Origin: a virus
Length of the DNA: 35,436 bases
Virus record (IMG/VR): IMGVR_UViG_3300023181_000059
Coordinates: 1 to 35,436 of that record
Reading direction: 5' to 3' (one strand)
The notes below the pieces were generated by a model. The model had not been told where the DNA came from and ran no database searches. It saw only the letters and a program-made list of their open reading frames with translations. Positions within the stretch are counted from its first letter, which is position 1. Each line of letters begins with the position of its first letter. Both the position numbers and the translations under genes were made by a program. Positions 2,027-33,581 of the stretch are shown in pieces.

Positions 2027-2286
2027 GGACGGCCTGGTCAAAGTTACCGTCCCCCCACGGAAATAGAACATCGTATGACAAACTAAAAGAGCATTCATTG
2101 AGTTGCTAAACCTCCTTCAGATGACGAAGAAATCATATGCCATACCACTTTCATAACGTTAAAGCGGGAACGGTGCAATAGTACCCTGCTATCTACCCTC
2201 ATCATAAATAACCAGAAGCGGTTTGTAAGTGAGAAACCTCTCATATAGACTAGAATAGCCCACTTATCAACAGTGGCAGTGTAATA
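2027..2286 (+). other. Non-coding, hairpin-rich stretch
   Basis: About 260 bases without a credible gene. It begins with a hairpin right after the stop (GGGACGG with CCGTCCC). Further small hairpins occur: AGCGGG with CCCTGCT near 2164-2193, GGTTT/AAACC near 2220-2236, and CCACT/AGTGG near 2260-2276. The stretch ends in the strong terminator at 2287-2317. It could be a structured 3' UTR or a small RNA, but no long closing stem is visible, unlike the RNAs at 2639 and 7307. Confidence 0.35.
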
Positions 2287-2373: not shown

Positions 2374-2574
2374 TTATAGCGCAACTGTACGATTAGTAAA
2401 GAAGTACCAGATACCACTCAAAAGGCCTACAAGAGGGCTTACAAACATGATAAAGGCACCAATTGGGCTAATGAACGGAATAAGTCCGATAACCAAGCCA
2501 AGCAGGTACGTAAGTCCCCAGGCTACTAACCCCACTACTATTGATAGAATGATTCGTGATGCAAGTGATTTCAT
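2374..2574 (-). CDS. Small two-helix membrane protein
   Basis: The only convincing leftward gene: 66 residues, with two long hydrophobic segments (about residues 8-32 and 38-60) separated by a short turn (PFISPIG). The C-terminus is short and polar (FFTNRTVAL). The start is supported by AAGGAA 8 bases upstream on the minus strand. A 3' terminator (2287-2317) and a weak upstream promoter make it a complete leftward unit. No family recognised. A leftward membrane protein in a phage could be an exclusion, immunity or lysis-modulating factor; this is inference. Confidence 0.7.
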   Translation of the reverse strand: MKSLASRIILSIVVGLVAWGLTYLLGLVIGLIPFISPIGAFIMFVSPLVGLLSGIWYFFTNRTVAL

Positions 2575-2638: not shown

Positions 2639-3218
2639 TGTAACAGCGGGGGGAGTTAATATTGAAGCTATTCCCTGAAGTGTGTAAGTCTAACTCCTAT
2701 TCGTTATTACTAGTTAAATCTAATTTATAAGCAAGTAATGTATTAAGAGTAGTCGTTATTCTATTAAGGACTAGGTAACTATTTATTAAAGGTATAAGCG
2801 CAGTGGTTTCAGGATAATAGCTTGTGAAGTCTTATGCTTACCGACATTCATTCTTGGCTCATCATTATGTATTACGGGAGCTACCAGTAACCTTATTGAA
2901 TTATCTATTACCCACAGCATAAACCACTACACTAATACCTTTAATTGTTATAGACAGAATGCAAGTGGTAATTAATAGGCTACTGATTAGGCACTAAAGC
3001 TTTACAGACGTTTATTAAGTCCTACAATCTGAACGGACGCCATTTACCAAATGCGTACCATCTATAACATAGTTCCAAATTTTTAAGGTATCTATATTGA
3101 TATTCTCTCATACTTCAGTACAAAAGCAGACTTTACGATAGTCTAAAACGTTGAGCGCATTTATAGTTCATTTAAGTCCAACTAAAGGCATACGTCAGCG
3201 ACTCCCCGGACTGTTGCA
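2639..3218 (+). ncRNA. Large structured non-coding RNA candidate (about 580 nt)
   Basis: No open frame of note in this stretch, but a set of long-range complementary segments. The closing stem pairs 2639-2646 with 3211-3218 (TGTAACAG/CTGTTGCA, one G-U) and 2650-2656 with 3201-3207 (GGGGAGT/ACTCCCC), with a 3x3 internal loop. Inside are 2785-2795 with 2935-2945 (11 bp, perfect); 2802-2809 with 2921-2928 (8 bp, perfect) across a 6x6 internal loop; 2818-2822 with 2879-2883; and 2946-2954 with 3061-3069 (9 bp, perfect), which abuts and could stack on the 11-bp helix. Local hairpins lie at 2750-2773, 3005-3031, 3038-3055 and 3128-3144. An alternative pairing, 2652-2658 with 2691-2697, competes with the closing stem. 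Size, phage location and architecture recall the ornate large RNAs GOLLD and ROOL, but I cannot match it to either. Strand + is favoured only by the G-U pairs and the terminator at 3262; no clear promoter was found. Confidence 0.55.
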
Positions 3219-3254
3219 TAAATAATATCTACTTGCTATAATTAAATTAGCAAG
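3214..3254 (+). promoter_or_regulatory. Strong housekeeping-type promoter overlapped by an inverted repeat
   Basis: TTGCAT (3214-3219), 17-base spacer, TATAAT (3237-3242) preceded by TGC. A 7-bp inverted repeat, CTTGCTA (3232-3238) and TAGCAAG (3248-3254), straddles the -10 box and start site, an arrangement typical of an operator; in RNA it would be a hairpin. The predicted start is near 3249, and a terminator follows only about 15 bases later. The -35 lies in the 3' arm of the closing stem of the large RNA. Confidence 0.65.
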
Positions 3255-3261
3255 AGAGCAA

Positions 3262-3293
3262 GCCCGATACGAAAGTGTCGGGTATTTCTATTT
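3262..3293 (+). terminator. Rho-independent terminator
   Basis: CCCGATAC (3263-3270) pairs with GTGTCGGG (3275-3282), including one G-U pair, around a GAAA tetraloop, followed by TATTTCTATTT. It lies 20-50 bases after the promoter at 3214, so it would cap a transcript of only about 45 nt or end the large upstream RNA. The GNRA loop and the G-U pair favour function on the + strand. Confidence 0.75.
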
Positions 3294-3371
3294 ATACCGC
3301 CCTATTTGTGTTCGCAAGAAAGCAAATAGTTACTTACTACTATACACAAAATACCGCTTATGTACAACCAC

Positions 3372-3495
3372 AAAAAAAGAAGTCCTCGTGATTGTGAGGA
3401 CAACTAATGTTTATTTTCCATTCGTTATGAAAGGTATATGCAATAAGGTACGAGCCTGGCGGTGATTCACTACTTCTAAAGTGCAGTCAGATTAC
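3372..3495 (-). ncRNA. Small leftward RNA candidate (about 125 nt)
   Basis: Bounded by a leftward promoter (3502-3530) and a leftward intrinsic terminator made of GTCCTC/GAGGAC (3382-3387 with 3396-3401) followed on the minus strand by a run of seven T (3372-3378). No plausible coding frame between them. Near its 5' end GCAAT can pair with a downstream ATTGC, enclosing a smaller hairpin. Could regulate the divergent early or large-RNA transcripts; its target is not evident. Confidence 0.5.
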
Positions 3496-3543: not shown

Positions 3544-3619
3544 AAAAAAATAGCCAGAGGGAAAGGGCATGAGTTGAGTACTGGTGGGAGTAGTTCAACT
3601 AAGGCTTCTCTGGCTATAT
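3544..3619 (-). ncRNA. Small leftward hairpin RNA candidate (about 75 nt)
   Basis: A 10-bp perfect stem (3550-3559 with 3608-3617, ATAGCCAGAG/CTCTGGCTAT) encloses a 6-bp stem (3572-3577 with 3595-3600). On the minus strand the outer stem is followed directly by seven T residues (3550-3544), so it is a terminator as well as the body of a short RNA. A leftward promoter (3626-3654) would start transcription at the first stem base. The rightward frame from 3481 to 3666 runs through this structure and looks spurious. Confidence 0.5.
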
Positions 3620-3625
3620 CTTTAT

Positions 3626-10138: not shown

Positions 10139-10221
10139 GTAAAATCAAGGATGAAATAGAATCAATGTCTTACGAATGGCAGGACGCATTGGCGTCAATG
10201 ATGGAGATAGAAGATGAGTAA
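10135..10221 (+). CDS. Possible 28-residue acidic peptide
   Basis: ATG 10135 to TAA 10221: MSKIKDEIESMSYEWQDALA followed by SMMEIEDE. AGAGGAG lies upstream at normal distance, and it overlaps both neighbours (ATGA before, 8 bases after), which fits operon style. Probably a real small gene. Confidence 0.5.
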   Translation: MSKIKDEIESMSYEWQDALASMMEIEDE

Positions 10222-10531
10222 AGTTACAAAAACAATCTTAGACCCTACTAAAGAAATAGGCCGTGTCAGTATATCAATGGATAACGAAGAACCTCTTTAT
10301 TTCGATAAAGCTGGATTTCGCATACCTTTAGTCGAAGTTGAGGTTGATTATAAACCAGAATACGACTTTGAACAAAGTGATATTAAACATTGGTATTTTA
10401 GATATAAGAGTGAAGCGTATCGAGATGTCACTACTAAAATTGCTACATTCAGAAGCCGTAATAAGTTTACCTACATCTTAACTGCAATGGTTATTGTAAC
10501 TTTCGATAAGTATATTGGCAGGTTTTTATGA
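10214..10531 (+). CDS. Hypothetical protein, 105 residues
   Basis: ATG 10214 has GGAG about 10 bases upstream. N-terminal beta-rich region (IGRVSISMDNEEPLYFDKAG) then PLVEVEVDYKPEYDFEQ, aromatic WYFRYKSEAY, and a hydrophobic C-terminus (FTYILTAMVIVTFDKYIG) that may be a buried strand or a membrane-associated helix. Overlaps the next gene by four bases (ATGA). Confidence 0.6.
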   Translation: MSKVTKTILDPTKEIGRVSISMDNEEPLYFDKAGFRIPLVEVEVDYKPEYDFEQSDIKHWYFRYKSEAYRDVTTKIATFRSRNKFTYILTAMVIVTFDKYIGRFL

Positions 10532-10740
10532 GCAATAACCTCACCCAACAAGAAGAGATAGACGCGATACTCAAGAAATTCAATCATGACATGAATAATC
10601 TAATGAACGAACTAACTGAAGAATCACCCTATCCAGCAGCCCGTACAGCCCTCACCCAGATGTTGATTAAGGCACAGGAACGAGTATTGGACGACATTAC
10701 TAAAAACCCTGGTGGGCTATTTGCAATCGACCCAACCTAG
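10528..10740 (+). CDS. Hypothetical protein, 70 residues, interrupted by amber codon
   Basis: ATG 10528 overlaps the preceding stop. MSNNLTQQEEIDAILKKFNHDMNN... is helical; it ends FAIDPT at TAG 10738-10740. The same frame continues for 37 more sense codons to TGA 10852-10854, which overlaps the ATG of the next gene exactly as other junctions in this operon do. The full gene was therefore probably 10528-10854 (108 residues when the amber codon is read) and TAG is a nonsense mutation, a sequencing error or a read-through site. Confidence 0.6.
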   Translation: MSNNLTQQEEIDAILKKFNHDMNNLMNELTEESPYPAARTALTQMLIKAQERVLDDITKNPGGLFAIDPT

Positions 10741-10854
10741 GGTCAACCAGATGGCTACCCTGAAATTCGACTTGAACCAGACGGCGCACATTTATGGATT
10801 AGGGATTACAAACTGTCGCTTCAACAATCATTAAACAAAGGAACAAAGGCATGA
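10741..10854 (+). pseudogene. In-frame extension beyond amber codon
   Basis: Codons after TAG read GQPDGYPEIRLEPDGAH and continue LWIRDYKLSLQQ before TGA. The residue pattern (PDG turns, alternating strand residues) looks like protein rather than random sequence, and the end overlaps the next ATG by four bases. No good independent start: the out-of-frame ATG 10750 gives only 27 residues. Confidence 0.5.
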
Positions 10855-11090
10855 GTACTTTTACCGATGAAGAAATAGATAAGCTACAAGAGATTATGAA
10901 TTCAATACCAGATTATTTTGATGATGTTGATGAGATTCAATGCCCTCATTGTGGCGACTCTCTAGGGCTAGAAGCTGCCGAACCAGCATTTTATACAGAG
11001 GAAACTTTGGATATGGAGTGCGACAACTGTAATAAAAAGTTTACCATCAACGGCTCAATGAGTTGGAGTTGGTCAACAGAAATAGTATAG
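10851..11090 (+). CDS. Zinc-ribbon-like protein, 79 residues
   Basis: ATG 10851 with AAAGGAAC upstream. Acidic N-terminal helix, then IQCPHCGDSLGLE (CxxC) and, about 25 residues later, MECDNCNKKFTINGS (CxxC): a four-cysteine zinc ribbon. C-terminus WSWSTEIV. Possibly a nucleic-acid binding or transcription-related factor; inference from the fold only. Its stop overlaps the ribosome-binding site of the next gene. Confidence 0.65.
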   Translation: MSTFTDEEIDKLQEIMNSIPDYFDDVDEIQCPHCGDSLGLEAAEPAFYTEETLDMECDNCNKKFTINGSMSWSWSTEIV

Positions 11091-11104
11091 GAGGCCACCT
11101 AACC

Positions 11105-11608
11105 ATGACTAACAATTTAACGTTCCCATGTGAAGGTAGCGAATTTAAAGGTTACCATAAGCTTGAAATTGTAAGTGAAATACCGGATAAAGACGCTAAC
11201 ACAGTTGTTGTGACAAGAAAATGTGCATGGTGTGGAAAGATAAAAGTAAACACGGAGCTTGTAAAACAAACAATGACTAACACAGATACACATAGAGGGC
11301 TAGACGATAAAGCACTACGAGAAGCCTTGGACAGTATCTTACACCTGAATGGCTGTCAGCAATACACTAACGGCTGGAATACTGGTAAAAAGGGTAAAGA
11401 CCTAGACATGAAAGATGTTGATAGGTTAGAAAAGTTAACTTTGAAAGAAGTATTTGCCTTAGTGAAAGAGCAGCAACAGACATATCTAACATTGTCTTTA
11501 GGTAATGACACTCATATTCACGATGGTGCAGCTGGTGACGAGGCTACATGGGAAGCAGCACAAAACAGTCTTAGGGCTGAGATTAAGGAAAAATATGGAA
11601 CTAAGTGA
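11105..11608 (+). CDS. Hypothetical protein with CxxC motif, 167 residues
   Basis: ATG 11105 chosen because AGGAGG lies 10 bases upstream; the in-frame start at 11063 is inside the zinc-ribbon gene. N-terminal part has TFPCEGSEF...TRKCAWCGKIKV, three cysteines with one CxxC, possibly with His/Glu completing a metal site. Then helical repeats (DDKALREALDSIL; LKEVFALVKEQQQTYL). End overlaps the next gene by 14 bases. Unrecognised. Confidence 0.6.
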   Translation: MTNNLTFPCEGSEFKGYHKLEIVSEIPDKDANTVVVTRKCAWCGKIKVNTELVKQTMTNTDTHRGLDDKALREALDSILHLNGCQQYTNGWNTGKKGKDLDMKDVDRLEKLTLKEVFALVKEQQQTYLTLSLGNDTHIHDGAAGDEATWEAAQNSLRAEIKEKYGTK

Positions 11609-20416: not shown

Positions 20417-21235
20417 ATGGCTCAAAACTTAGCTTCTAAGTACAGCGCAAAAGTTGTTGAACGCTTTAAACTAAAAAGCCTCACCGACAAAGCTGTAAAC
20501 AACGACTACGACTGGACTGGCGTTAACTCTGTTAGCGTTTACTCAGTCGCCACTGCAACTATGGGTACATACACCCGTTCTGGACAAAACCGTTACGGTA
20601 CTGTTACAGAAGTTGACACAACCATCCAAACACTAACCCTAGCTCGTGACCGTGCGTTTACGAAGTCTATCGACCGTCGTAACCGTGACGAATCAATGGG
20701 TGTAACTGAAGCTGGTAAGTTCCTCGCTCGTCAACTTGACGAAGTGATTACACCAGAAATTGACGTATACCGATTGGCTACTCTTGGTACTGCTGCATCT
20801 GTTGGTGCAACTACCGGTGCGACAACTGCTGCAAACGCATACTTAAACTTCCTCGCAGCTCAAACTGTGATTACTGACAAGAAGGTTCCCCTTACTGGCC
20901 GTATCGCATTCATGACTGCACAGTACTACGCATTCTTGAAACAAAGCAACTTCGTGCTTGACTCAGAAGATGCAATGGGTTCACGTCACTCAGGTAACTA
21001 CGGTACTGTTGACGGTACAACTATCCAAGTTGTTCCAAGCTCATACATGCCTACTAACGTTGACTTAATCATTACTCACCCAGTAGCAATGGTTAGCCCA
21101 ATGGTTCTTGAAAGCTACAAGACACACGTAGATGCCCCTGGTATCAACGGTTGGCTCGTAGAAGGTCGTGTAGTATACGACGCATTCGTATTGACTGCTA
21201 AAGCTGACGCAATCGCTAAGCACTCAATCGCCTAA
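20417..21235 (+). CDS. Major capsid protein
   Basis: 272 residues, AAAGGAAAT site. Position after scaffold, size, abundant codon-optimised style and the sequence plan (N-terminal YSAKVVERFKLKS, beta-rich VNSVSVYSV, EVDTTIQTLTLARDRAFTKSIDRRNRDES, helical FLARQLDEVITPEIDVYRLATL, then C-terminal strands VDLIITHPVAMVSP) fit a HK97-fold coat protein. Exact family unassigned. Stop followed by a second stop (TAATAA), usual for highly expressed genes. Confidence 0.8.
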   Translation: MAQNLASKYSAKVVERFKLKSLTDKAVNNDYDWTGVNSVSVYSVATATMGTYTRSGQNRYGTVTEVDTTIQTLTLARDRAFTKSIDRRNRDESMGVTEAGKFLARQLDEVITPEIDVYRLATLGTAASVGATTGATTAANAYLNFLAAQTVITDKKVPLTGRIAFMTAQYYAFLKQSNFVLDSEDAMGSRHSGNYGTVDGTTIQVVPSSYMPTNVDLIITHPVAMVSPMVLESYKTHVDAPGINGWLVEGRVVYDAFVLTAKADAIAKHSIA

Positions 21236-21260
21236 TAACTAAGTAACCAAGGAGAAGATT

Positions 21261-21548
21261 ATGGCAGATAACGTACCATACGCAGACATCAAAGAAGACG
21301 CTGAACGACTTACAAAAGCTCGTTTGGCTGCACAAAACAACAACATTACTGAGAACGACCTAAAAATCGAACCAGTACTACAAGCTGTTACACCTAACGA
21401 CGCAGAAGCGAAGAAAGCCAACACTGGCGGTATCGACGTTGCTGGTTCACCTGATTCATTCAGTGGCCCTGTATCTGACGGTTTTAACGATGGCGCTGTT
21501 GAAGAAGCAGCAACAGGCACTACTAAAGCTAGCAAAGTAGCGAAGTAG
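21261..21548 (+). CDS. Head-associated protein, possible decoration or minor head protein, 95 residues
   Basis: AAGGAGAAG before ATG 21261. Charged helical N-terminus (YADIKEDAERLTKARLAAQ), then a Gly/Ser/Asp-rich, low-complexity C-terminal half. Located right after the major capsid gene, the usual place for a capsid-associated protein. Function not determined. A GGGAGA/TCTCCC hairpin follows. Confidence 0.5.
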   Translation: MADNVPYADIKEDAERLTKARLAAQNNNITENDLKIEPVLQAVTPNDAEAKKANTGGIDVAGSPDSFSGPVSDGFNDGAVEEAATGTTKASKVAK

Positions 21549-21555
21549 TTCAGAT

Positions 21556-21573
21556 GGGAGAGTGGGGTCTCCC
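21556..21573 (+). other. Hairpin after the capsid gene pair
   Basis: GGGAGA (21556-21561) pairs with TCTCCC (21568-21573), loop GTGGGG, 8 bases after the stop of 21261-21548. No long T run follows, so at most a weak or partial terminator that could reduce expression of the following tail genes relative to capsid. Confidence 0.5.
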
Positions 21574-21606
21574 GACCAAGATTAAACTTAATTAGAGATT
21601 ACAATT

Positions 21607-21969
21607 ATGGCAAAACTTAAAGTTATACAGTATGACCCGTTCAAAAAGGGCGATACCCCTGTCTTTGCTTTCCAATTCACTCCACCATACGTAGGGTTTG
21701 ACTGGACAACTATTACCGCAGATATTGCCATGACCGATGTTTCTAATCCCTCAGACAATACAGGTGCGGCCTTCGTTCGACTTAACCAAACACTTACACC
21801 AGACGTAGATAACATAGCAACTGTGAGCGCACAGCCAACCGTCTTGGAAAGTAAAGCACTCAGTGCCGATACTGAATACAAAGTGGAGATTCAACTTAAA
21901 GAAGGCTCAGATAACGTAGCCACCCCGATAACAGGTAAGGTAACTGTAGTACAGGACTACATTATATAA
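21607..21969 (+). CDS. Appendage/baseplate-type protein, 120 residues
   Basis: MAKLKVIQYDPFKKGDTPVFAFQF... then alternating strands: ITADIAMTDVSNPSD, AAFVRLNQTLTPD, YKVEIQLKEG, GKVTVVQDYII. The N-terminal pattern (a short strand, then KGDTPxFxF) resembles upper-baseplate/receptor-binding N-terminal domains that describe measured-value beta sandwiches in phage tails. It precedes a tail fibre, so an attachment adaptor is likely. Family assignment tentative. Confidence 0.5.
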   Translation: MAKLKVIQYDPFKKGDTPVFAFQFTPPYVGFDWTTITADIAMTDVSNPSDNTGAAFVRLNQTLTPDVDNIATVSAQPTVLESKALSADTEYKVEIQLKEGSDNVATPITGKVTVVQDYII

Positions 21970-25302: not shown

Positions 25303-25490
25303 TGGCTACTGATAAGGAGTTTATCGTCAATAAGAAATTCTTCATTGGCTTCATTACTATACAAGTTATACTGCTCGCTATATTTGCTTACGTAATACTC
25401 AGCCCTAAAACGGTGACCGTCCGGGTTGAAAAGTTAGAACATGCCTTCAGTACGAAAGAAGTGCTTGAGATTATTCCCCCCAGTCTCTAG
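25302..25490 (+). CDS. Small single-span membrane protein, 62 residues
   Basis: Basic N-terminus (MATDKEFIVNKKFF), one hydrophobic helix (IGFITIQVILLAIFAYVIL, about residues 15-33), then a polar external tail (PKTVTVRVEKLEHAFSTKEVLEIIPPSL). Placed at the end of the appendage cluster, before a late promoter whose -35 includes its TAG stop. May be a spanin-like, lysis or superinfection-blocking protein; no family recognised. Confidence 0.6.
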   Translation: MATDKEFIVNKKFFIGFITIQVILLAIFAYVILSPKTVTVRVEKLEHAFSTKEVLEIIPPSL

Positions 25491-25516
25491 CATAACTACT
25501 TTACTCACCGTATACT
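25488..25516 (+). promoter_or_regulatory. Late promoter copy 2 (before internal virion genes)
   Basis: TAGCATAACTACTTTA then TATACT at 25511-25516 and GAACACATC. ATAACTA begins 19 bases before the -10. Shares a 16-base identical upstream block with copy 4 at 33531. Confidence 0.65.
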
Positions 25517-25599
25517 GAACACATCGTAGACCATACTAACTAGGTGGTCGTATCTAACTCCTTGTGGAACGAATTAAAATTTATTACAGGAGAATATTC

Positions 25600-26745: not shown

Positions 26746-29700
26746 GTGGCATATACTAAAAAGCAACGTTCAGACAAAGGCTTTGACTTCTTTGATAACA
26801 ACGGTAAGAAAATTACCATTGAACAGTATACCCAAGCCACCGGAGCAAATGGTTCAGACCTTCGCAAAGAACTAGCGCGCAGTGGTGACCAAGTATCTCA
26901 AAAGATAATCACTAATGATGGTATTGGGAAAATAGGCAAGAACCTTGTTGACTTTACCAAAACAATCGGTTCCAGTGTCCAACAAGGCTTGGGTGCTGTC
27001 ACGGATGTTGCTCTACAAGGTGGAGCAGTTATCGCCAACCCACTTGCTAAACTTCTAAATCCAGACGTAGCTAAGTACGTTGACCAAGCGACCGTTGATA
27101 CCACTGACCCACTTCGTAAGTTTATCCAATCGCAAAAAGACCTAGAAGGTAAAAGACTAGCCGGTACTTCAGATGTTGACGTCAATGCGACACGTATTGC
27201 CAGTGGCCAAGGGAACCTTCAAGATGTTGCCGCCGTTCTTGGTAAGGGTGCCGAAGTCGCTAGTGCTGCGACGATGTTTGCTAATCCACTATCGCTTGCG
27301 AAGGGAGCAACTGCCCGACAAGTTGCTACAACAGCTGCTAAAGATGCTGCCTTATTTGGTGGGCTTGGAGGTGCACAAGCGGGATTACAAAGCTTTGGTG
27401 AAACAGGTGACCTAGGCCAAGCAGTCAAAGCTGCTGGAACCGGTGCGCTGATTGGCGGAGTCACCCAAGGTGCATTAGATGTTGTCGCACCGGTAGCAGG
27501 CGCTCTTACGCGTCGTGGAGTGAACGACGGTGTACAAGCCGTTAATGATGCGAAGCCTTCGTCTATCGCCTCTCAAGACCCCCGGGTGACGGGATTTGAT
27601 GACCAGTACACAACCCTTGCTCAACAATTCGACACCATACAAGACCCAATCGCTCGCCGAGAGGTTTCTAAAGCTATGGCTCAAAACCGTGTGGAACGCT
27701 TGAATGCTCGTAAGAGTGTAGAGCGTGAGATTGGTCAAGGTGGGTACATTAGGCTTCCAGGAGAAGATAGAGTACGAGTTGAAAAACTGGCACGTCAAGG
27801 TGAAAGGGACGGCTTACCTTTAAACTACTTGAACAAAATAGATACGCAATTCTCAGAGGACTTATTACCAAACAATAAAATATCATATGACAACAAAGGT
27901 GATTTCTTTGATAATCCTGAATCTAGCCGTGAGCAAATTGCTAAAAATATTCAAAAATTGCAATCTGGTGGGAAACTAGACCCGATTATTATAGACGAAA
28001 AGGGCAATGTACTAGACGGTCAACACAGAATGAGTGCATACGAGGCGTTAGGTGTAAAAGAAATACCAGTTTATCGACCTGCTAACAAAGAGCTTTCTAT
28101 TGATAATGAGAGAACAAGAAGGCAAGAGATTTTTGGACAAGACATAACACCTGAGTTTTATAAAAGAATTTCAGATACATCCAGCTTAGACCGTAACCAA
28201 GAAATATCACAACAACCAACGTCCGACCAGTTAGAAAGTTCAATACGTGGTTCGTTCGATAACGGTAACGTCGAAATGCAGAGTATCCAAACCTTACCAG
28301 ATGATAATCCTCGTTCTCGATTTGCTTCAACGACAGCACCTAACAGTGGTAACCTTAGCCCTGAACTAGCTCAAGCTGTTCGAGAGAATGCTTCAAGTTA
28401 TAAGAAGTCTACTAACTCGGGTAGTGTTGAGGAATCTATTAACTTCCTTAATAACCGTACTGAAGATGAAGCAATTGACGACGTTCTGAACCGCCTTAGC
28501 CAGAAGAATATTGACCGCCAAGCTGTTACCGATGCCATTGCCGTTGCTGCTTCACTAGATAATAAAGGTGGTACTCGCAACCTCGAACTGGCTCAGAATA
28601 TCTACGATACGCTTTCTACCCAACTGACGAAGGCTGGTCAAACCGTTCAAGCAGCCAGTATCATCTCTCGCCGTACTCCAGAAGGTATGACTTATAACGC
28701 TTTACGGGAACTCCAAAAGGCTGATGTTCCTGTGACACCAGATATTCGTCAAGCTATTATTACAAAGACTCAAGAAATTGGTCAGCTAAAACTCGGTAGT
28801 GAAGCCCGTGAGGTAGCGACAGCAGAACTACAAAAGCAAGTGAATAGCCTTATCCCAACTGAATTAGTCGATAAACTGGTAGGTACCTGGAAGGCTGGAC
28901 TCCTTACTGGTATTCGTACGACTACAGGTGGTGCATTATCTAACGTTTTGTTCCGTGGTCTCCGAGAAGTCTCTCGCCCGGGAGCAGTCGCAGCGGATAT
29001 GGTAGCCTCCCTGTTTACTGGTAAACGAAGTTCTGTTCTAACTAACAGAGGCAACTGGGCTGGTACAGCCGAAGGCTTACAGAAAGCCGCAAAGTACCTT
29101 AAATCTGGTGTAGATGAACGTTCGTTTAGTGCTGATGGTAAGTATATAGACCGTGAAATTAACTTTAAAAACCCAGCACTAAAGACCTATGTTAATGGTG
29201 TCTTCCGTGTCATGGGTGCCGCTGACCGTCCATTCTATTACTCTCAATTCCGTAACTCTCTCGCAGAGGCTACGATTGTCGAAGCTAAGAATCTTAAGTT
29301 AAAAGGCAAATCTTTTGATGACTATGTAGAAAATGGCATTAAAAATCCAACCGAAGAAGCCACCCAATACGCCACAGACGTGGCCGAACAGGCCGTATTA
29401 GGCAATGACACCTTACTCTCGAACGTCGCGAATAAGCTGCGTGAAGCCGTCTCAAAGCAAGAGAATGCAGCGGTCCGTGGTGTTGGTAAGGCCGCGTTAG
29501 GCGTATTAGCACCGTTTACTAAAGTCCCGTCTGCTTTCTTATCCCGAGTGATTGACTTCACTCCTATTGGTGCAGTAAAAGAAGCCGTCACTCAGATGGC
29601 TAATAAATCCTTAAATCAAAACAAACTGGTTCAAGCTATCTCTGAGGCAGGTACAGGTACGGGTCTTATCTACTTAGGTGCTGAACTTGCAAATAACGAC

Positions 29701-30837
29701 TTACTGACTGGTAACTATCCTAACGACCAAACCGAACAAAACCGTTGGAAAGCCGAAGGGATTACCCCTAACTCAATTAAGATTGGAAATACCTATTACT
29801 CTCTGAACTACGCCGGCCCAGTAGGTGCGTTATTCGGTATTGGTAAATCTATAAATGACGCAATTAAAGACGGTGGCGACTCCGTTGCAGCACTCACGGC
29901 AGGTGTTACACAGCTTGCCAGTGGTACGCTTGAACAATCATTCTTATCAGGTATCTCTGGTGCGCTTGACGCTGTACAAGACCCTAAGCGATATGCAGAG
30001 AACTTTGTCCGTTCACAAGCTGGCTCGGTTATTCCGACTATTCTTAATGATATTGGGAACGTGACTGATGAAACTCAACGTCAAACGAATACTCCTCTAG
30101 AGGCTATCCAAGGCCGCATACCAGGTGCGAGGACAGGTCTTAACCCTAAAATTGACTCCCTCGGAAATGAACTGACTCAAGCAAACCCTGATAAATTAGG
30201 ACGCTTAGTTGACCCCTTCCGCCCCTCTCAAGAACGTTCTACCCCTATCACTGAGGAACTAGACCGCTTAGATAAAGCGGGTCAACCTATCTTCCCGTCT
30301 AACGATAAGACACTGAAGGTCGGCCAAGAAACTATCAAGTTAGATGGCAACCAACAATACGAATACAACCAAGGCGTTGGACAAGAAACAACCCTGATTT
30401 GGGACGGTATTATTAATTCGCCTGAATATCAAGCCCTCAATGATGAGCAGAAAAAAGACATGCTTTCGAATGCGACCAGTGACATTAATACCGTTGCTAA
30501 AAAGCAGTACCTAGAGAAGCTTGGCAAACAAGCAACTGCTGACAAGGTGTCGTACAGCAAACGTCAGCAAACCTACGCTGACGGAGTAATAGACCCAACC
30601 CTTTGGCTGCCGAGTAATTCTGAAATCGCTATCGCCAAAAAGGAAACCGCCCGCACTGCCAAAGTAAGCGCTAAAACTGCCAAAACTAAAACCGCTAAGA
30701 GAAAATCAAGTGGCTCACGAAAGATTGGCTTTAAAGCGCCTAGCTCAGGTGGGTTTAAACGAACTGCCTCGACTGCTGCTATTCAGAAACTCTTGTCTTC
30801 AGCTGGTTCAACCATAAAAGCTAAGAGCATAGGATAA
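26746..30837 (+). CDS. Giant internal virion/ejection protein with central ParB-like domain, 1363 residues
   Basis: GTG 26746 with CAGGAG upstream. The longest gene; position between a small ejection protein and the tail adaptor, and the mix of amphipathic/Ala-Gly-rich segments (LGAVTDVALQGGAVIANP; KDAALFGGLGGAQAG; GTGALIGGVTQGAL) fit a T7 gp16-like core protein that enters the host with DNA. Around residues 395-445 is LDPIIIDEKGNVLDGQHRMSAYEALGVKEIPVYRP-type sequence: the DGxHR motif of ParB/sulfiredoxin-like nucleotide-using domains. Bases about 27740-28250 encoding this are AT-richer than flanks, so it may be an inserted module. C-terminus is strongly basic (KTAKTKTAKRKSS), probably DNA-binding. 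No muralytic domain recognised. Confidence 0.7.
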   Translation: MAYTKKQRSDKGFDFFDNNGKKITIEQYTQATGANGSDLRKELARSGDQVSQKIITNDGIGKIGKNLVDFTKTIGSSVQQGLGAVTDVALQGGAVIANPLAKLLNPDVAKYVDQATVDTTDPLRKFIQSQKDLEGKRLAGTSDVDVNATRIASGQGNLQDVAAVLGKGAEVASAATMFANPLSLAKGATARQVATTAAKDAALFGGLGGAQAGLQSFGETGDLGQAVKAAGTGALIGGVTQGALDVVAPVAGALTRRGVNDGVQAVNDAKPSSIASQDPRVTGFDDQYTTLAQQFDTIQDPIARREVSKAMAQNRVERLNARKSVEREIGQGGYIRLPGEDRVRVEKLARQGERDGLPLNYLNKIDTQFSEDLLPNNKISYDNKGDFFDNPESSREQIAKNIQKLQSGGKLDPIIIDEKGNVLDGQHRMSAYEALGVKEIPVYRPANKELSIDNERTRRQEIFGQDITPEFYKRISDTSSLDRNQEISQQPTSDQLESSIRGSFDNGNVEMQSIQTLPDDNPRSRFASTTAPNSGNLSPELAQAVRENASSYKKSTNSGSVEESINFLNNRTEDEAIDDVLNRLSQKNIDRQAVTDAIAVAASLDNKGGTRNLELAQNIYDTLSTQLTKAGQTVQAASIISRRTPEGMTYNALRELQKADVPVTPDIRQAIITKTQEIGQLKLGSEAREVATAELQKQVNSLIPTELVDKLVGTWKAGLLTGIRTTTGGALSNVLFRGLREVSRPGAVAADMVASLFTGKRSSVLTNRGNWAGTAEGLQKAAKYLKSGVDERSFSADGKYIDREINFKNPALKTYVNGVFRVMGAADRPFYYSQFRNSLAEATIVEAKNLKLKGKSFDDYVENGIKNPTEEATQYATDVAEQAVLGNDTLLSNVANKLREAVSKQENAAVRGVGKAALGVLAPFTKVPSAFLSRVIDFTPIGAVKEAVTQMANKSLNQNKLVQAISEAGTGTGLIYLGAELANNDLLTGNYPNDQTEQNRWKAEGITPNSIKIGNTYYSLNYAGPVGALFGIGKSINDAIKDGGDSVAALTAGVTQLASGTLEQSFLSGISGALDAVQDPKRYAENFVRSQAGSVIPTILNDIGNVTDETQRQTNTPLEAIQGRIPGARTGLNPKIDSLGNELTQANPDKLGRLVDPFRPSQERSTPITEELDRLDKAGQPIFPSNDKTLKVGQETIKLDGNQQYEYNQGVGQETTLIWDGIINSPEYQALNDEQKKDMLSNATSDINTVAKKQYLEKLGKQATADKVSYSKRQQTYADGVIDPTLWLPSNSEIAIAKKETARTAKVSAKTAKTKTAKRKSSGSRKIGFKAPSSGGFKRTASTAAIQKLLSSAGSTIKAKSIG

Positions 30838-30858
30838 CTACTCTATGAAAATTATAAT
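30830..30858 (+). promoter_or_regulatory. Late promoter copy 3 (before tail adaptor)
   Basis: TAGGATAACTACTCTA then TATAAT at 30853-30858 and GAAGACAGG. ATAACTA is 19 bases before the -10. It begins inside the last codons of the giant ejection protein. Predicted start about 30865, very near ATG 30877 whose site (AGGAAAA) would still be included. Confidence 0.65.
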
Positions 30859-30876
30859 GAAGACAGGAAAATAACC

Positions 30877-31557: not shown

Positions 31558-33533
31558 TGGCTTATGTACCTCAGCAAATCCGTCCACCGAAAATTGAACG
31601 GTTATCTTTGCGTTCCTGGATGGAAGGGTATAACTCTACTCTAGACGTCGGGCGTACGCCTCAAAAGGGACTTGTTGGGGCGACTAACGTCTTAATTTAT
31701 CAGGATGGTACGGTTGGTCCTCGGCCGTCTTTAGTGAAATACGGTCAAACTCCTTTAGGGACTATTTTAGGAGAAGTCGGAGAGTTTCTTAACTCGACTA
31801 CTTTAGAGAAGTGGCTGATTACCCTCCAGAACGTCTCTGGCACCACCAAAGTAACGATTTCAAAAGACGGTGGTGCATGGCAAATTATCGACGGCAAGAC
31901 CTACGACAACACCGCCCCAGGACACTTTGTACAAATTGACGAAAAAGTCCTGGTGATGAACGGGGTAGATAATCTTAGTTATTTCAATATCCCGACTGCA
32001 CTCGTGGTGCCCTTCGTAGCTTTGCCTACTCCAACTGCTCCTACGATTACGCCTACAGGGCTTTCTGGAACGACCTATACTTACTACTACACCATTACGG
32101 CAAACTCTACCGTAGGTGAAACGGCCGCCGCTCCAACTGACTCTCAGCAAGTCTCTCTAGTACGAGGGGCATGGGATGAAACAACTAACTACTTAACCAT
32201 TACCTGGGCAGCGGTCACCGGGGCGCAAAGTTATAACTTATATATGGGTGAAACTGCCGACGCTCAATTCTTAATTGCTTCTGCCATAACAGGACTTACG
32301 TATAAAGACTCAGGTATCGCTTCCAAAGATGTCACGCGTACTGCTCCGATTGCTGATACGACCGAAGGGCCAAAAGTGACTCGTGGACAGGTGATTAACG
32401 GTCAAGTCTTCCTTACAGGAGATAAAGATAACCCTCGTTACGTACGTTATGGCGGTTCTGGTATCTCAGCACTCGACTTTTCTCCATACGGTGGGGGTGG
32501 TTGGGTTGAGATTGGCCGTGGTACTAAAGAATTTCCAGTAGTTGTTAAACCGTTCCGAACGGGGCAAGGTACGCCTACACCTATGGTTATCTGTCGGGGT
32601 ACGAATGGTTCTGGTAAACGCTATACAATGACAAGTACCTCTGTGACTGTTGGTGATGAGATTATTCCTTACTTCGATGTTAAAGAAGACAATGGACAAG
32701 ACGGTACCGATTCTCCTGACGGCGTGGTATCGTACCGAGACAGCCTGTGGTATCCCTCTCGCGGTGGATTTAAAACAACTGGTACCCGTCCTCAACTACA
32801 AAACATCCTCTCGACGAATACGGTATCTGAAACTATCCAACCTGACGTGGTAAACTTAAATGTCCTTTCTATGGATAAGTGTGTTGGACTTGCCTACGAT
32901 GGCCGTATTTATTGGGCACTTCCTGTCGGAGCGACCGAAAACAACCAAATCTGGGTACTTGACCTTGACCGAGATGGTGCTTGGATGCTTCCACAAAACA
33001 TTTCAGCCGACTGGATGAACCTCTACGAAGATAATACGGGTAATACCCACCACCTTATTTTAAAAGATAACATTATCTTTGAACTGACCGACTCCCAATC
33101 TACTATGGATAACGGTCAAGCCTTCCCAACCAATATCACTTCTGGACAACTCCGCTTCTCAGAAGACGGTGAAGAATGGGCTACCGTTACCCGTGTTACT
33201 TTTGTATTCCTTCGTCCTAGAGGGGTAATCAATGTGGCGGTATCAGGAAAGACTGAAGACGCTTCCCTCTCGACCGTGGGTGCTGATTCCTTCTCGGCTG
33301 TTTCAACCGCCGTTGGTTGGGCTGAATCTGCCTGGGGAACGCTCCCCTGGTCTACCACCTTATCTGTGCCGATTTCCTACGGTAACTCCCGCGAAAAAAT
33401 CCCGATTGAAATCGAGGAAGATATGAACTGGGTGACCTGGTCAGTAGATTCAACTGAAGCCAATACTTCCTACCAATTAAGTGATGTCATTGTGGAGTAT
33501 GTGAAGATTGGCCTGCTTGATTCCGACGGTTAG
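31557..33533 (+). CDS. Tail nozzle / tail tubular protein B-like (T7 gp12, P22 gp10 type)
   Basis: 658 residues, starting on the adaptor stop. The N-terminal region has the nozzle signature WMEGYNSTLDVGRTPQKGLVGATNVLIYQDGTVGPRPSLV (a short piece is diagnostic: N-x-GxxxPRPSL). Repeated beta blades follow, including VLVMNGVDNLSYF, VNGQVFLTGDKDNPRYVRYGG, YRDSLWYPSRGG and LAYDGRIYWALPVG, consistent with a beta-propeller platform. A fibronectin-like insertion (APTITPTGLSGTTYTYYYTITA...) lies near residues 160-245. It forms the hexameric tail tube tip and carries fibres. Ends at TAG 33531, which belongs to the next promoter. Confidence 0.8.
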   Translation: MAYVPQQIRPPKIERLSLRSWMEGYNSTLDVGRTPQKGLVGATNVLIYQDGTVGPRPSLVKYGQTPLGTILGEVGEFLNSTTLEKWLITLQNVSGTTKVTISKDGGAWQIIDGKTYDNTAPGHFVQIDEKVLVMNGVDNLSYFNIPTALVVPFVALPTPTAPTITPTGLSGTTYTYYYTITANSTVGETAAAPTDSQQVSLVRGAWDETTNYLTITWAAVTGAQSYNLYMGETADAQFLIASAITGLTYKDSGIASKDVTRTAPIADTTEGPKVTRGQVINGQVFLTGDKDNPRYVRYGGSGISALDFSPYGGGGWVEIGRGTKEFPVVVKPFRTGQGTPTPMVICRGTNGSGKRYTMTSTSVTVGDEIIPYFDVKEDNGQDGTDSPDGVVSYRDSLWYPSRGGFKTTGTRPQLQNILSTNTVSETIQPDVVNLNVLSMDKCVGLAYDGRIYWALPVGATENNQIWVLDLDRDGAWMLPQNISADWMNLYEDNTGNTHHLILKDNIIFELTDSQSTMDNGQAFPTNITSGQLRFSEDGEEWATVTRVTFVFLRPRGVINVAVSGKTEDASLSTVGADSFSAVSTAVGWAESAWGTLPWSTTLSVPISYGNSREKIPIEIEEDMNWVTWSVDSTEANTSYQLSDVIVEYVKIGLLDSDG

Positions 33534-33559
33534 CATAACTACTTTAATAAAATTATAAT
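33531..33559 (+). promoter_or_regulatory. Late promoter copy 4 (before second appendage cluster)
   Basis: TAGCATAACTACTTTA then TATAAT at 33554-33559 followed by TAAGACATA. ATAACTA begins 19 bases before the -10. The consensus of all four copies is TnGnATAACTA(C/A)T(C/T)T followed by a TA(T/C)A(A/C)T box, then A(G/C)ACA. Confidence 0.7.
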
Positions 33560-33581
33560 TAAGACATAAAAGGAAACTCAT

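Follow-up and report, generated by a model that had tools for sequence, protein, structure and literature searches.

The 35,436-base virus record IMGVR_UViG_3300023181_000059, analysed at its full length and hereafter called the window, belongs to a tailed phage for which metagenomes are the sole source. Comparison with related phages supports the presence, in this record, of a structured RNA of about 730 nt encoded on the minus strand between roughly positions 3332 and 2600, as well as a conserved promoter, terminator and repeated sequence which would define a small antisense RNA on the opposite strand. We rate the chances as about even that this locus is an RNA-based, ColE1-like replication origin or its control RNA, because the RNA exchanges places with an initiator gene in a relative and because mycobacterial prophages provide a precedent. 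Transcription of both RNAs, their pairing, and the role in replication are what we infer from sequence.

Structure, strand and extent of the large RNA

Relatives were gathered by searching viral contigs for Erf and TerL and comprise L002 (a near copy), L003 (G002), L004 (G003), L054 (G014), L005 (G004), L053 (G013), and L051 (G012). Counterparts of the window RNA are present in four of these contigs, and the five-phage comparisons below refer to the window, L003, L004, L054, and L051. As window/L054 and L003/L004 are related pairs, the five phages count as about three independent observations; L051, from a GC-rich and distant phage, is a weaker member of the family. The comparisons rest on few phages, taken two sequences at a time.

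A preliminary description of the window had proposed a large ornate RNA, possibly of a new family, in a gene-free stretch at 2639-3218. No plausible gene was found there, and the helices then listed do exist, including ATTAAAGGTAT/ATACCTTTAAT and the closing pair GGGGAGT(T)/(G)ACTCCCC. This is a real structure, exceeding chance: on each strand the fold beats every one of 200 shuffles that preserve dinucleotides (z -4.1 plus, -3.3 minus). Of the two-part closing stem, the GGGGAGT/ACTCCCC part (minus strand, 5' arm 3201-3207, 3' arm 2650-2656) is conserved in the window and L054, while the outer GTAACAG/CTGTTGC part is less secure, having a mismatch on the minus strand and a possible local hairpin in L054.

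Folding energy does not choose between the strands, and comparison with relatives favours the minus strand. Base pairs were counted as shared when their probability exceeded 0.3 in both sequences, with column shuffles as the control. On the minus strand each comparison yields 24-40 shared pairs with up to nine two-sided changes, far above the shuffles. Module A has 31 shared pairs on the minus strand versus four on the plus (shuffles about 2.4); the leaders of L003 and L004 have 27, with nine two-sided changes, versus 11 with two; and those of the window and L054 have 24 versus 14. For module B the counts are 30 with seven two-sided changes on the minus strand and 28 with three on the plus. 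Compensatory changes thus appear on the minus strand, while plus-strand agreement is near chance in module A and weaker in the leaders. G.U pairs in helices of at least 8 bp likewise number 21 on the minus strand versus 11 on the plus. Several observations point the other way: the window/L054 core scores about equally on both strands (minus 40 shared pairs with six two-sided changes, plus 42 with four), one conserved 10-bp core helix carries its G.U on the plus strand, and the folding-energy z favours plus in the window and L054. What decides for the minus strand is the leader together with module A and the promoter; the core by itself would not settle it. RNAalifold, when applied to sequence pairs, gave unstable structures.

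The coordinates of the preliminary description implied a plus-strand RNA. A large plus-strand RNA ending at the 3262-3283 terminator was considered and rejected as the principal reading, module A sharing almost no plus structure and no conserved promoter on the plus strand being apparent, by eye, near 2600. Transcription from the minus strand, from about 3332 to about 2600 (both ends approximate), is most likely, given the shared and covarying pairs and a match to the leader model described below.

The boundary formerly placed at 3218 also had to be moved, since the unit runs to about 3332, where it meets a promoter on the minus strand, and has a structured leader for which homologues exist. 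The promoter, TTGTAC-17-TATAGT, lies at 3339-3367 (minus), and in all five phages the minus-strand hexamers are exactly 17 nt apart and at a similar distance from the first hairpin. The leader itself (3207-3332, minus) consists of this hairpin 1 (3302-3329) followed by a domain holding the complement of the antisense terminator. Minimum free energy folds of all five leaders place hairpin 1 within nt 1-33 and close a second domain, a combination seen in 3-4% of shuffles; these chance figures are somewhat optimistic, the feature thresholds having been set after the folds were seen. Individual folds and a two-sequence model were used because a joint MAFFT alignment misaligns the five leaders. That model, R1, was built from the L003 and L004 leaders only (63% identical, nine two-sided changes), and matches the window at 3336-3207 on the minus strand with E 1.1e-4 in 262 kb searched. 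With filters off, the syntenic site and strand provide the best match in L054 (E 0.36) and the joint best in L051 (E 0.63); a sub-threshold match in G013 (E 0.95) adjoins the initiator gene discussed below, on the other strand.

Counterpart RNAs are about 380-660 nt long in three relatives. L054 resembles the window in the outer core (82% over window 3060-3345, 73% over 2604-2796) and differs in the peripheral domain. The window's own peripheral domain, module B (2785-2943, minus), is common to L003 at 75%, and L003 and L004 have another core in common at 81%. Since cores and peripheral domains are shared in different combinations, the RNAs of the window, L003, L004 and L054 look mosaic, all occupying the same genomic place.

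Searches against the 4227 families of Rfam gave no match at gathering, and raising the limit to E 5 brought none for the window, L003 or L004 on either strand, ROOL and GOLLD included; the RNAI family gave none either. No convincing match to the window RNA was found in phage or plasmid records. DNA-pattern searches for homologues returned, among viral contigs, only the phages already known and one coding-sequence match (L122), and, among GTDB genomes, 15 matches, all attributable to chance. An ERF protein search in genomes had no match. Together with the covariation in relatives, this bears out the earlier suggestion of a novel RNA: the family appears to be new, although systems of this kind have precedents, and it would add to Rfam a family which that database does not hold.

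The predicted antisense RNA and its duplicated sequence

Opposite the leader, all five phages carry a plus-strand promoter (17-18 nt spacing) followed by an intrinsic terminator within about 15 nt of the start. In the window the promoter is TTGCAT-17-TATAAT at 3214-3242, and the predicted antisense RNA of about 40 nt spans 3249-3288 with its terminator at 3262-3283. The whole 12-16 nt between +1 (to within 1 nt) and the terminator stem is repeated 60-74 nt downstream in each of the five; a repeat match of at least 12 nt is expected at 0.23% of random positions. In the window, copy 1 (GCAAGAGAGCAA, 3250-3261, plus) would form the single-stranded 5' part of the antisense RNA. The second copy lies at 3314-3325, its plus-strand reading being GCAAGAAAGCAA, and its minus-strand complement supplies hairpin 1 with its 5' strand and its loop. 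The recurrence of the sequence therefore places a complement of the antisense 5' part within hairpin 1 of the large RNA. The repeat varies between phages and matches within each; where copies differ internally, in the window and L051, G stands in copy 1 and A in copy 2, and pairing is kept as G.U. Neither the antisense unit nor the duplicated sequence featured in the preliminary description, which was also silent on the exchange with an initiator gene in a relative.

We propose that a structured RNA of about 730 nt, running counter to the phage genes, would supply or control, close to its 3' end, the primer from which the leading strand is synthesised. The antisense RNA of about 40 nt would limit it. 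Its single-stranded 5' part of 12-16 nt would pair with this sequence where hairpin 1 presents it, and also with the stretch of the leader complementary to itself; such pairing may open hairpin 1 and alter the fold downstream. Somewhat short of even are the odds we give to the wider proposal, that tailed phages possess a new family of RNAs which initiate replication, can be exchanged for protein initiators, are built of swappable modules, and have a dedicated antisense RNA of about 40 nt whose target is duplicated in a 5' hairpin.

The repeat might instead be a DNA operator, bound by a repressor of the two overlapping promoters. This concerns control only, is compatible with a role in replication, and is a serious alternative, though less likely than not. 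Its appeal lies in the positions of the copies, the first at +1 of the plus promoter and the second, counted from the minus start, at about +7 to +9 in four phages, and in the inversion of the second copy in G013, which is ill-suited to RNA pairing. The repeat is not palindromic, however, and its ends match the RNA start and the terminator stem. The G/A differences between copies preserve RNA pairing, and hairpin 1 is retained despite changes in the repeat sequence.

Small phage RNAs complementary to two copies within a leader are familiar from the immunity systems of P4 (CI) and P1 (C4). The present arrangement is similar in that respect, but differs in that the antisense RNA lies on the opposite strand with a promoter of its own, and in that its target is a structured RNA of 400-700 nt. 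The resemblance to ColE1 RNA II and RNA I extends to a structured RNA of several hundred nt, the lack of a recognised initiator protein, and an antisense RNA which overlaps the 5' hairpins of the larger one (here by prediction, in five phages). Unlike RNA I, the antisense RNA would be about 40 nt long and consist of a single hairpin preceded by a tail at the 5' end, the target of that tail being duplicated; it has no Rfam match.

The putative replication slot and competing explanations

One ground for a role in replication is the relative G013, whose TerL is 82% identical and which holds, in the same slot and on the same strand, a 152-aa replication initiation protein (phrog_19658, E 6e-27; HTH_36). 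Its gene precedes a small minus-strand membrane gene homologous to one in L003. Searches of G000, G002, G003 and G014 for initiator, DnaD-like and DnaB proteins had no match, and no replication initiator was present among the window proteins scanned, a scan which covered part of the open reading frames (ORFs). The RNA-bearing phages accordingly lack a recognised Rep protein where a relative carries one, with the caveat that the records may be incomplete. Circular GC-skew minima lie close to the slot in G002 (10849, the RNA spanning about 10145-10797) and in G013 (21874, the initiator spanning about 21190-21640); in the other phages the distance is roughly 1-5 kb.

Mycobacterial extrachromosomal prophages offer a precedent, in which RepA and non-coding-RNA origins alternate and the origin RNA is transcribed opposite to the structural genes; RNA origins without RepA occur in RedRock, Alma, LadyBird, Gladiator and Et2Brutus (PMC7157519). 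In both settings a non-coding RNA of a few hundred nt (a predicted one in the present case), with few or no ORFs, opposes the structural genes, and a Rep protein fills the same role in relatives. The mycobacterial role is demonstrated experimentally (PMC7157519), whereas the role here is deduced; a predicted antisense RNA and conserved structure are features seen here. No sequence homology to the mycobacterial RNA origins was found, blastn against 50,697 phage records giving no full match and only short matches at chance level. Further differences are that no parABS was identified here and that, G012 apart, no integrase was matched in the family.

Several considerations weigh against a role in replication. 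In G004 the slot has neither an RNA leader nor a recognised initiator. G012, a distant relative only, encodes an integrase, and its counterpart adjoins terS. The GC-skew pattern may reflect the composition of early and late genes. Lastly, the terminator scan found none at the 3' end of the large RNA, which could then be the leader of an mRNA. The RNA slot of G004 contains a 91-aa ORF without a recognised family (L005 8286-8561, minus).

It is doubtful, though less far-fetched than the readings that follow, that this is a free-standing ornate RNA of unrelated function, akin to ROOL or GOLLD, the classes which had served as the frame of comparison in the preliminary description. Size, closing stem, a complex and partly exchangeable structure, and the phage setting are alike. 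Islands of tRNA genes often occur near ROOL and GOLLD (PMC12286853), and a tRNA-like element occurs in the counterpart from L051, on the strand of the RNA. A tRNA search of the window and relatives found none, though, and neither class is matched by covariance models; the choice of that frame is not supported. The terminator scan found none at the 3' end of the RNA, and neither the overlapping antisense RNA nor the swap with an initiator gene would be anticipated. The putative replication slot is a further difference from ROOL and GOLLD. The L051 element lies at 2145-2255 (plus), within a long helix, and is tRNA-Leu-like; ARAGORN calls no tRNA there.

Less probable still is a long regulatory leader of a minus-strand operon that encodes small membrane proteins, with the antisense RNA causing attenuation in the manner of P4 CI or a type I toxin-antitoxin system. 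Small minus-strand ORFs do follow the RNA with no terminator between, those of the window and L003 being 60% identical, and a promoter, a tail and a hairpin likewise occur in the leader of the initiator gene of G013. The downstream ORF is nevertheless different in L004 and L054 and is terS in L051, while inspection by eye shows a sequence like an extended -10 between the RNA and the ORF in three phages; 400-700 nt of structure is, moreover, a great deal for attenuation. The G013 initiator leader (ERF-oriented, about 21640-21700; L145 5038-5100) has the same promoter-tail-hairpin design, and its hairpin could mask the ribosome site; a second copy of the tail lies close by in inverted orientation.

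A packaging RNA of the phi29 pRNA type is highly improbable: nothing favours it beyond a structured RNA in a tailed phage, and packaging does not appear to need the RNA, because terminases are 82-95% identical between RNA-bearing phages and one in which no such RNA was found. In G013, with TerL 82% identical, a whole-record search found no RNA leader, which is indirect evidence.

Few phages are known to start replication with RNA in place of protein, and the accessible portions of the mycobacterial report contain no description of the structure or control of the origin RNA (PMC7157519). In the present family several diverged RNAs share a leader architecture, an antisense regulator is predicted, and one relative has a protein initiator where these phages have the RNA, which makes the interchangeability of RNA and protein initiators in phages testable.

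Neighbouring features and other observations

The plus strand carries all major window genes, among them those for TerL, an Erf-like annealing protein, NinG, a major head protein and a holin. The one plausible exception is a 66-aa membrane-protein ORF at 2374-2574 (minus), downstream of the large RNA and on its strand, which is 60% identical to L003 7880-8074 and had no match in family searches. A hairpin at 2288-2320, judged by eye and not flagged in the terminator scan, is a possible two-way terminator ending the minus-strand unit. That scan did place a minus-strand terminator at 3382-3401, just upstream of the RNA promoter; this hairpin and another at 3547-3622 lie between the promoter and the Erf operon, where relatives carry different hairpins.

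Three related 37-nt repeats at 25488-25524, 30830-30866 and 33531-33567, two of them containing TATAAT, stand just upstream of genes at 25564, 30877 and 33582 and are probable late promoters. A virion protein of 1363 aa is encoded at 26746-30837, its residues 393-444 being ParB-like nuclease sequence, and L054 carries a gene for a phage tRNA-His guanylyltransferase (Thg1) at 10815-11480.
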